Origin: Tsuneonella troitsensis | GTDB lineage: Bacteria > Pseudomonadota > Alphaproteobacteria > Sphingomonadales > Sphingomonadaceae | Reading direction: 5' to 3' | NCBI RefSeq assembly: GCF_001441535.1 | Contig: NZ_LMAU01000004.1 | Span: forward strand, 186,001-250,000 | Length of the DNA stretch: 64,000 bases | In this document: positions 24,452 to 26,994 of the stretch, one piece after another | Layout: every line of letters starts with the position of its first letter | How positions within the stretch are numbered: the stretch's first letter is position 1 | The notes under the pieces: generated by a model | Told to the model about the DNA's origin: nothing | Seen by the model: only the letters and a program-made list of their open reading frames with translations | Database searches by the model: none | Program-made: the position numbers and the translations under genes

Positions 24452-24507
24452 CGACCCCCACTTGCGTGCGCGCCCGCCCGAAGGCAATGCGCTGGCAGAT
24501 CAACGCG

Positions 24508-25023
24508 ATGACGGGGGAAAGGTTGCCGCAGGCTGAAGGCGAGGCGTCCGATAACGGTCATGCGGGTCATCGATCCCGGCTGCGCCAGCGCCTGCTGATG
24601 GGCGGCGCGGAAGCGCTCGCCGATTACGAAGTACTCGAATACCTATTGTTCGCCGCCAATCCACGAGGCGACACGAAACCGCTCGCCAAGGCTCTGCTCG
24701 CGCGGTTCGGGACGCTGGCGGCCGTGCTCAACGCGGAAGCGGGCGCGCTTACCCAGGTCAATGGGATGGGCGAAGGCGGTGCAGCCGCGCTCAAGGCGGT
24801 GGCGCTGGCCGTGCGGCGCATGGCGCGCGGCGAAGTGCAGGACAAGCCGGTGCTGGGCAGCTGGCAAGCCCTGCTGGATTACCTGACGATCGACATGGCC
24901 CACCTGACGGTCGAACGGGTTCGCGTTCTCTACCTCGACACGTGCAATAGGGTTCTGCGCAAACGCGCACAGGTGATAAACCTAGAAGGGCCAGTGTTCA
25001 TTGGCGCGCAGACATTACGGTGA
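24508..25023 (+). pseudogene. radC: radC 5' part, interrupted by insertion
   Basis: N-terminal half of RadC, a JAB/MPN-domain protein long linked to DNA repair. The helix-hairpin-helix-like region (HRSRLRQRLLMGG, ADYEVLEYLLFAANPRGDTKPLAKALL, MGEGGAAALKAV) is intact up to VRVLYLDT. There the sequence leaves RadC: at GACAC (24937-24941) foreign DNA begins and adds about 27 unrelated codons before a stop at 25021-25023. The metal-binding HxH motif is lost from this part. Start is ATG 24508 or 24487 in the same frame. Confidence 0.92.
24937..24941 (+). repeat. Left flanking direct repeat GACAC of the radC insertion
   Basis: Codes for Asp and part of Thr in the RadC LDT(R)NR segment. Identical to 26710-26714. 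Either a 5-bp target duplication or the crossover core of a site-specific recombinase. Confidence 0.75.
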
Positions 25024-25056
25024 TAGTTCGTAAATCACATTGAGTGTGGGGGAACC

Positions 25057-25419
25057 ATGAACAAGCTTAGTGTTGCTCTGGTCTGCATTGCATGCGCGGT
25101 TATGCCCCAAAGTGTTCAAGCTGCGCCCGCTAAGGTCGAGTGCGTTTTCAAGACCGGGATGGGCAAGGATTGGCCCATGACTTTTGTGTTTGATGAGCAA
25201 ACGAAGAGCGTCACTGTGCGGGATGCTCTTATGCCAAAATACGATTCTACAGTTCGTGCGACCTACAATCCAGAGACCGTTGTATTTTCCAAGAACTCGA
25301 TACAGGTCTTCGAGGTTAATCGTGTGACGCTCGTGGCTCGCCGCACGATTCTAGATGAGAAAATGCAGGAGCAAGTCGTCACCTGCAAACTAGGAGACAG
25401 CCCAGCAAGGGCATTTTGA
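25057..25419 (+). CDS. Small exported protein in the radC insertion, unknown function
   Basis: 120-residue protein with a clear signal peptide (MNKLSVALVCIACAVMPQSVQAA, cleavage near residue 22) and a strong GGGGGAA ribosome-binding site eight bases before the ATG. The mature part has two cysteines (in KVECVFKTG and VVTCKLG) that could pair, and a beta-rich look (MTFVFDEQTKSVTVRD). Codon use is less G/C-biased than the surrounding genes, which agrees with transfer. I recognise no family. Confidence 0.72.
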   Translation: MNKLSVALVCIACAVMPQSVQAAPAKVECVFKTGMGKDWPMTFVFDEQTKSVTVRDALMPKYDSTVRATYNPETVVFSKNSIQVFEVNRVTLVARRTILDEKMQEQVVTCKLGDSPARAF

Positions 25420-25448
25420 TTTCGCTTCTTTGCTGTCTCTGAGCGTTA

Positions 25449-25658
25449 TCACCTAAGTAGCGCAACTAATCCTAGCACCCCGAAAATAACCCAGCGGATG
25501 ATGCTGTGCCAAACCCAAGTGTGCTGGTGATGCACAGTGGTTTGTCTCTCTGGGGGAGGCTTGTGGGGCGGCAGGACATACCAGGACACTGCAGGGCGCT
25601 GCGCTTCCTGTGGCTGCTGGGGCAAGTTGTCCTTGGACTTCGGGTTGCGCACTTCCAT
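25449..25658 (-). CDS. Small C-terminally anchored membrane protein in the insertion (tentative)
   Basis: 69-residue frame on the minus strand. The first 45 residues are polar with prolines, glutamines and histidines (PPHKPPPERQTTVHHQHTW), followed by one transmembrane helix at the very C-terminus (IIRWVIFGVLGLVALLR). GAGG lies only about three bases before the ATG, which is close. Convergent with the exported-protein gene before it. No family recognised; might not be expressed. Confidence 0.45.
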   Translation of the reverse strand: MEVRNPKSKDNLPQQPQEAQRPAVSWYVLPPHKPPPERQTTVHHQHTWVWHSIIRWVIFGVLGLVALLR

Positions 25659-26039
25659 TTCCTCGCTCGGTCAGAAGGCGCAGTGCGCCCTTTAATTTCT
25701 GTCCAGTGCGAGGGGATTAAGGAAGTCCTCCCCTCACCCCAAGAAACGCACAGAATCAGCCCGCTTTGCAAGGTAAAGTTTTCCCCACGCGGCCTCTATC
25801 CACAGGCTCCCGCCGGCACTTTGACCTACCGATTAGGAAAAGATGATTTCGTAACAATGCCTTGGTTGTCGTCGAAGGCCAAACGCCACGTGGGGGCAAT
25901 TGCCACCCATTTGTGTCTAACGGCGGTATCACCAATCAAAGACACTGGCGTTCACCCCACTGGTAAATCCCAACGGGTTGCGGCCCTTTGTGAGGTTCAG
26001 ATAGGGTGGGTTCTTCAAAGCCAAAGGAAATGCGCGATA
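25659..26039. other. 381-bp stretch of the insertion without a convincing gene
   Basis: A plus-strand frame is open through here into the next gene, but its sequence has no start signal or protein-like pattern and the downstream gene has its own signal peptide and RBS. The only structure I see is a near-palindrome at 25891-25909 around GGCAATTGCC. It presumably contains the promoter of the 26040 gene. Confidence 0.5.
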
Positions 26040-26570
26040 ATGAGCGGGATTCTCAAATTGGGAATTGCTTTAGCGGCGACAATCCTTGTCTGGCCAACAG
26101 CCAGTCAGGGAGCAGGTGAGCCGTGGAAGCGCTTTTGGCTGCTCGGTGGTCTTCACCAAGGCATGACGGAAGATGAGTTCAACGCTGCGGTCGTGAGCAA
26201 CAAGGCAGTTGTGACAAATCCCATCCCCAACAGCATCACCAAGGGGGTCAAGATTGGCGGCACCGACTATTGGGTTATGTTTTGCAACGGGGAGCTGACC
26301 TACGCATCCTGGATTCTCAATAATAACGATGAGCTTCTCAAATCGATGAGCGAGCGGGTTAACCAACAAGGGTTCAAGCTCTCGAACTACAAGGTGGCCT
26401 CTGGCTACAACGACGCAGCTAAGACCGATAATAATGGGCTGGAAATGAGATTTGAAAACCCAGAGCGCGAATTTTCTGTCACCTATAACCTGTTCCCCGG
26501 CAATGGGCAGATTACACTTCAGGACTCACGTTACGACGATTCTTTTAATTGTGCGAAGGACGCAAAGTAA
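26040..26570 (+). CDS. Exported protein in the radC insertion, unknown function
   Basis: 176-residue protein. The chosen ATG has AAAGGAAA about ten bases upstream and opens a typical signal peptide (MSGILKLGIALAATILVWPTASQG, cleavage near residue 24). The mature part begins GAGEPWKRFWLLGGLHQGMTEDEF; LHQGMTEDEFNAAV resembles the start of small outer-membrane SmpA/BamE-like or other domains in which a G-M/S-T/S-x-x-x-V turn opens a helix, but I would not assign it. Two cysteines are present. A longer frame upstream (from 25506) is rejected because it buries the signal peptide. Confidence 0.72.
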   Translation: MSGILKLGIALAATILVWPTASQGAGEPWKRFWLLGGLHQGMTEDEFNAAVVSNKAVVTNPIPNSITKGVKIGGTDYWVMFCNGELTYASWILNNNDELLKSMSERVNQQGFKLSNYKVASGYNDAAKTDNNGLEMRFENPEREFSVTYNLFPGNGQITLQDSRYDDSFNCAKDAK

Positions 26571-26612
26571 CGCATCGCTGAATTTCGCTATAGCACTTTA
26601 AAATGAGGCGAA

Positions 26613-26648
26613 TGCGTGTATTCTACCGACTCTTGCGGAATACACGCA
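26613..26648. repeat. 11-bp perfect inverted repeat near right end of the insertion
   Basis: Arms TGCGTGTATTC (26613-26623) and GAATACACGCA (26638-26648) with a 14-base spacer, ending about 61 bp before the right boundary. No T-run follows, so an intrinsic terminator is unlikely on the plus strand. It has the geometry of a recombinase or regulator binding site. Confidence 0.7.
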
Positions 26649-26706
26649 CCACTCTCAAGCCGTTGAAAAACAACGAAAATGGCTTGATTTTTTCAGTCGT
26701 AGCCAT

Positions 26707-26994
26707 GTGGACACCCGCAACCGCTTGATAGTGGATCATCACGTCGGCGACGGCTCGATCGACGAGGCGGCGATCCACCCGCGCGAGGTCGTCCGCAAGG
26801 CGCTCGACGTGGGTGCGGCCGCGATGATCCTCGTGCACAACCACCCCAGCGGGAATCCCGAGCCCAGCCGGGCCGACATCGAGATCACACGCCGCATCGC
26901 CGAGGCCGGCCGCCTGCTCGGCATCGTGGTGCACGACCATGTCATCGTCGGTCGAGAGGGCCACTCGAGCCTGAAGGCGAAAGGCCTTATTTAG
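26707..26994 (+). pseudogene. radC: radC 3' part (JAB/MPN domain), separated by insertion
   Basis: C-terminal half of RadC with the complete JAB metalloprotease-like motif: IHPREVVRKAL (Glu side), then VHNHPSGNPEPSRAD (HxHPxG...S..D) and HDHVIVGREGHSSL. It would start at a GTG formed by the last three bases of the insert and has no good RBS, so expression is doubtful. It is kept intact, suggesting a recent insertion or residual use. Its TAG lies 8 bp inside the end of the convergent DUF3857 gene. Confidence 0.9.
26710..26714 (+). repeat. Right flanking direct repeat GACAC of the radC insertion
   Basis: Second copy of the 5-bp repeat; radC resumes here in frame as DTRNRLIVDHHV. Confidence 0.75.

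Follow-up and report, generated by a model that had tools for sequence, protein, structure and literature searches.

The radC gene of Tsuneonella troitsensis was found to be interrupted by a recently arrived, small and foreign-looking segment of 1768 bp, located at positions 24942–26709 of the window, i.e., of the whole stretch of 64,000 nucleotides that was analyzed. A copy of GACAC lies on each side of this insert, whose length is 1773 bp when one repeat copy is counted in. The features of the locus, with their basis in brackets, are as follows:

24487–24941, forward strand: left part of radC (N-terminal domain, HHH-like region and start of the JAB domain), ending at LDT (sequence, Pfam, congener match).
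24937–24941: left copy of the 5-bp direct repeat GACAC (sequence).
24942–26709: insert, 51.5% G+C, single copy in the genome (sequence, composition, genome search).
24942–24966, forward strand: left end of the insert, reading CNRVLRKR in the radC frame, RadC-like (scoring against radC sequences).
25057–25419, forward strand: ORF P0002, 120 aa, signal-peptide-like start by eye, eight predicted strands, distant relatives beside phage genes (ORF list, search, model).
25449–25658, reverse strand: ORF P0003, 69 aa, perhaps spurious, with a membrane helix suspected by eye (ORF list).
26040–26570, forward strand: ORF P0001, 176 aa, signal-peptide-like start by eye, relatives not found (ORF list, searches).
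26613–26648: perfect 11-bp inverted repeat near the right end (sequence, folding).
26655–26694, forward strand: another hairpin with a run of T behind it, resembling a terminator by eye, unreported by the terminator scan (sequence, folding).
26710–26714: right copy of the 5-bp direct repeat GACAC (sequence).
26715–26994, forward strand: right part of radC (remaining JAB domain, including HNHPSG) (sequence, Pfam, congener match).

The left half of the gene reads ...VLYLDT, with ...CTC GAC AC as its last bases at 24941, and after the second GACAC the RadC reading picks up as CCGCAACCGC. Joining 24487–24941 (455 nt) to 26715–26994 (280 nt) yields 735 nt in frame, which corresponds to a RadC of 244 aa with the ATG at 24487, or of 237 aa with a start at 24508, where the protein start MTGERLPQ of genome G006 aligns. 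A radC cut by a 1.77-kb insert with a restorable frame, and a fused protein of about 237 residues, had been claimed in an earlier note on this DNA, and both were borne out. In Pfam searches, the left ORF matched UPF0758_N above its cut-off, and HHH_5 and part of RadC below theirs, while the right ORF matched RadC/JAB far above the cut-off. At a blunt junction, five bases would be repeated exactly by chance in about 1 of 1024 cases; beyond these 5 exact bp, the similarity continues less strictly to GACACnnGCAA, in which 9 of 11 positions agree. The host genome (G000) also contains two further RadC-like matches, with 37% identity each (G000:C3:242258-242836 and G000:C7:84280-84537), so that some RadC-type protein may remain in this organism.

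All 10 other congeners showed two radC match pieces on a single contig with an overlap of 6–17 bp (11 or 12 bp in eight of them), the left piece ending at query position 456–462 and the right piece beginning at 2219 or 2224. Moreover, each of the ten encodes one uninterrupted RadC in which LDTRN spans the junction, and carries the GACAC site once (as GAYAC) with no codons lost. These observations establish insertion rather than decay, in agreement with the earlier note. With regard to the origin of the two halves, G006 was the best DNA match of both (81% identity to the left half and 90% to the right half) and also showed the lowest dS to both (0.941 and 0.484, respectively), which rules out that they derive from two paralogues; by dN alone, the left half was closer to G009 (0.056) than to G006 (0.067). 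When G000 was compared with eight congeners, dN/dS ranged from 0.050 to 0.129 for the left half (125 codons) and from 0.029 to 0.060 for the right half (86 codons); the pairs without G000 gave means of 0.090 (39 pairs, maximum 0.214) and 0.063 (37 pairs, maximum 0.137), respectively, with saturated-dS pairs, among them those of G000 with G010 and with G005, excluded throughout. Private residues in G000 amounted to 0 and 1 in the two halves. Neither half is therefore under relaxed constraint, which indicates that the insertion is recent and that the halves belong to one gene. Hence, of the two alternatives named in the earlier note, i.e., relatives without an intact radC and halves from different paralogues, neither was encountered in the congener comparison. 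The composition of the insert is also at odds with its surroundings, since its G+C content is 0.515 versus 0.68 (left) and 0.638 (right) in the 2-kb flanks.

None of the three ORFs of the insert had a convincing family match in Pfam, PHROGs, NCBIfam or PADLOC; the best ones, both of P0002, had E values of 0.043 and 0.045, far below curated cut-offs. Family-profile searches of these ORFs revealed no recombinase match within the insert, PADLOC gave no match to defense genes, and the sole RNA-family find was a tRNA elsewhere in the window. Structure prediction gave a useless model for P0001 (pLDDT 40.7) and a good one with eight strands for P0002 (pLDDT 81.8), for which no match at E ≤ 0.001 was obtained in the PDB or among viral structures. 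Judging from the signal-peptide-like starts seen by eye, the cargo apparently includes small exported proteins.

No second copy of the insert was found in its own genome, and as DNA the whole insert matched in 0 of 248 other family genomes and in no plasmid or phage; here and below, the plasmid, phage, viral and genome contig searches may omit records very near the window's own genome. Relatives of P0001 were absent from the 248 other family genomes as well as from genome contigs, plasmids, viral contigs and phages. In contrast, P0002 had relatives in 2 of 247 other family genomes, namely G131 (35% identity, E = 2.5e-7) and G206 (29%, E = 2.5e-5), and none in plasmids, viral contigs or phages when searched as a single sequence; a profile scan of viral contigs added one further locus, whose adjoining ORFs begin like those of G131. 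In G131 (L112), the neighbors are an S24 repressor, a Mu-type transposase matching rve and Mu-transpos_C, and a tail tube protein; in G206 (L113), a tyrosine integrase and a capsid protein are found together with an AAA protein. On the basis of this gene content, P0002 relatives appear to travel with phage-type genes. The P0002 relative of G206 lies about 3.4 kb from a RecF-like gene.

We also analyzed the ends of the insert. Terminal inverted repeats were not detected above shuffled sequences (265 of 300 shuffles scored at least as high), and Mu-type TG...CA ends were absent at the repeat boundaries. The right 144 nt, with its two hairpins, folded more stably than shuffled versions, only 2 of 200 of which equalled it, and the left 120 nt did not (31 of 200 equalled it). 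Used as queries, the ends had some match in 221 of 248 genomes (G000 included) at E values up to 5; in the 247 other family genomes these were weak, short matches and no convincing relatives, the best outside G000 being of 27 bp (E = 5e-4). Five of the best end matches (L083, L089, L091, L095 and L096) coincide with a single A-rich hairpin at the right end; the sequences flanking them are not alike, and they are read as probable chance matches. Among the 11 loci outside the host for which reading frames were listed, eight had a stop-to-stop frame of more than 300 aa across the match, read as conserved coding words or chance, and the remaining three (L089, L095 and L096) had frames of just 84–177 aa. 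The left-end pattern had 0 matches in the genome contigs collection.

The left end itself resembles radC. When its eight codons were compared with 26 radC sequences, an equal or higher score was reached by 45 of 35485 frames in 20 kb of the window and by 6 of 2571 within the insert (itself included), and among 3486 other insert 25-mers its mean DNA identity to radC was equalled by 10 and its best single identity by 64. This corresponds to frequencies of 0.001–0.003 on three measures and of 0.018 on the fourth, all obtained post hoc. A first test with a noisier set, the only one in which 12 RadC-like viral loci were used, had given 3 other frames of 2571 and 47 of 56121. Given that the idea arose after viewing the sequence, we regard this resemblance as a lead rather than as proof.

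Insertions into radC were also observed elsewhere in the family. Two RadC screens, both weak, bear on a further LDT-site insertion. The first, of 396 genomes, gave 383 with a match and 13 without, G000 itself passing on its right half alone, and, among the matches listed, only that of G000 starts later than query residue 4. The second, of 248 genomes, yielded 243 with a match, and the matches listed all cover residues 19–236 except those of G000 (1–151) and G089 (2–204). Close inspection comprised 20 of these 248 genomes, i.e., G000 and 19 picked for low scores or several matches. In 3 of those 19, radC is split at HNHP, with both halves on one contig, by islands (L067–L072):

G219:C1:150395-249000: radC halves about 98 kb apart, core of 11 exact bp.
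G123:C1:3793596-3909760: radC halves about 115 kb apart, core with two C/T differences in 11 bp.
G182:C11:179303-258909: radC halves about 79 kb apart, core of 13 exact bp.

About 12 kb of sequence was read at each end of these islands, and a tyrosine-integrase gene was located near the left junction in all three, by Pfam in G219 and G182 and by 78–90% identity to those two in G123. The family therefore uses radC repeatedly, at a site other than LDT. G222 may hold a fourth HNHP-type split, with its radC pieces on separate contigs. In G184, a short contig (L058, G184:C282) joins other coding-like sequence to radC at the NRLM stretch; this candidate for a second LDT-site insertion was rejected as a probable chimera, the right piece lying on a 3.7-kb contig of a fragmented assembly. 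In the literature searched, in part as excerpts, insertions into radC at its LDT codons were not described. The consulted sections of PMC3401170 mention RadC only as a gene carried on islands, and the main text of PMC8407400 has no radC passage.

The earlier note had tentatively placed the core of Tn554-type transposons in the same LDxxN codon region, which was not supported. According to passages of PMC9616846, the Tn554 relative Tn558 targets GATGTA in radC; the inverse complement is given there as TACTCA, a mismatch, and GATGTA was therefore taken as the core. Since GATGTA reads Asp-Val and the solved RadC 2QLC shows HNHPSGDV, we infer that the Tn554 site lies just after HNHPSG. In Listeria radC, Tn6188 lies between bp 540 and 541, which corresponds to the relative site of the Tn554 family (an extract of PMC3788773). 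In the G006 RadC, LDT is at residue 143 and HNHPSG at 186, their starts being 43 residues apart, so the Tn554 site would be about 47 codons downstream of the LDT insertion site. Tn554-type targeting was rejected on site (LDT versus the probable HNHPSG) and on gene content (no TnpA, TnpB or TnpC match).

Taken together, the best-supported mechanism is site-specific recombination by a recombinase absent from the insert, followed by transposition and then by microhomology capture. It is about an even bet that the insert is a non-autonomous element, or an eroded phage or satellite remnant without integrase, which recombined site-specifically into radC at LDT. The exact repeat GACAC, within GACACnnGCAA, would represent the attL/attR core and the left end a short radC-like arm; since no recombinase lies in the insert, the enzyme would have acted in trans or been lost later. 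The insertion cuts off the catalytic JAB half from the remainder of the protein, with a presumed loss of RadC function, and small, apparently exported proteins came in with it, one of a kind found beside phage genes. Established in this are the insertion, its recent date, its deviating composition, the lack of a recombinase match and the phage-associated relatives of P0002, whereas the recombination mechanism, the functional loss and any role of the cargo are interpretation. The direct repeat together with an empty site without lost codons in 10 of 10 congeners, the lack of detected terminal inverted repeats, the neighbors of the P0002 relatives in G131 (Mu-type transposase and S24 repressor) and G206 (tyrosine integrase and capsid protein), the integrase islands at another radC site and the above-chance likeness of the first codons of the insert to radC favor this mechanism. 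On the other hand, the exact repeat has just 5 bp, compared with 11 and 13 exact bp in two of the HNHP-site islands, the left-end likeness is a post hoc one over eight codons that is weaker on one measure (64/3486), and searches of its own genome, family genomes, plasmids and phages yielded neither an autonomous partner nor a related att site. Possible trans-acting sources in the host are 12 tyrosine-recombinase matches, of which one is a stop-containing 59-aa frame, and two large serine-recombinase matches (L117, G000:C1:16000-26000, and L118, G000:C3:130000-139000). The insert ends were compared with nine host stretches holding 10 of the 12 tyrosine-recombinase matches and with the two around the serine ones; the only similarity was a 24-bp match to a word also found in long reading frames of other genomes, and L117 and L118 gave none.

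Transposition of the Mu, Tn7 and Tn3 types is compatible with a duplication of 5 bp, and transposons of this kind have conserved ends (TG...CA or terminal inverted repeats). GACAC could accordingly be the target duplication of a DDE-type transposase acting in trans on a defective element, e.g., a deletion derivative of a transposable phage, in keeping with its single occurrence in the congeners and with the Mu-type transposase near the P0002 relative in G131. However, neither type of conserved end was detected, there was no second copy in the genome, in 248 relatives (whole insert) or in 247 (ends), and the radC-like left end would be a coincidence; we consider transposition possible but rather improbable. 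Illegitimate capture, in which a phage or plasmid fragment joined radC through 5-bp microhomology during repair or uptake, would need no dedicated recombinase and fits the lack of a recombinase match, of inverted repeats and of a whole-sequence relative. Nevertheless, the same 5-bp repeat at both ends, with no target bases lost relative to the congeners, suggests dedicated recombination, and the left end again resembles radC, so that capture seems unlikely. A Tn554-family or RIT-type element, as proposed in the earlier note, is largely refuted and highly improbable. It is true that radC is the classic Tn554 target, that the insert resembles Tn6188 in its lack of terminal inverted repeats, and that a RIT6 insertion in the radC of Tn6054 has been published as data not shown (an excerpt of PMC3414803), but the insert has no TnpABC or RIT trio match, the site differs from the probable Tn554 one, and the tyrosine-recombinase matches of the host include no adjacent intact pair or trio, the closest two being 2.6 kb apart on C3 with the 59-aa frame as the second.

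The significance of this case lies in a radC freshly disrupted away from the probable Tn554 site by a very small, foreign-looking insert. A fuller version of the site-specific reading, which we put forward as doubtful, is that the LDT codons are a second radC attachment site beside the HNHPSG site of Tn554 and the islands, recognized by an as yet undescribed integrase with a radC-like attP; the insert would then be a trans-mobilized, non-autonomous passenger with phage-type accessory genes, and its precise excision would restore the frame. If site-specific recombination is correct, radC has two separate attachment sites, one of which can be used by tiny integrase-less passengers, which bears on the spread of small accessory phage genes; if not, this is an ordinary recent insertion. 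With a target gene already familiar, it is a real but fairly ordinary case of mobile DNA.

Among known systems, mobile insertion cassettes and MITEs carry passenger genes and no transposase. The insert shares this trait, but it has no detected terminal inverted repeats and is single-copy, with no autonomous partner found. The islands of G123, G182 and G219 likewise target radC and have a short direct-repeat core, a part that GACAC may play in the insert; unlike the insert, which lies at LDT and has no integrase, they carry their own tyrosine integrase near the left junction, are far larger and occupy HNHP, where their core measures about 11–13 bp. radC is also the target of ICEs and IMEs of Mesorhizobium, an alphaproteobacterium, as already published (sections of PMC8627217). 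Tn6188, as described in part of PMC3788773, resembles the insert in being without inverted repeats, and differs in its 5117 bp with tnpABC, compared with 1.77 kb and no recombinase match. Finally, the Tn554 family (Tn554, Tn558, Tn559 and Tn6188) also interrupts radC with a short core, which would be GATGTA just after HNHPSG in these transposons, whereas it would be GACAC at LDT in the insert.
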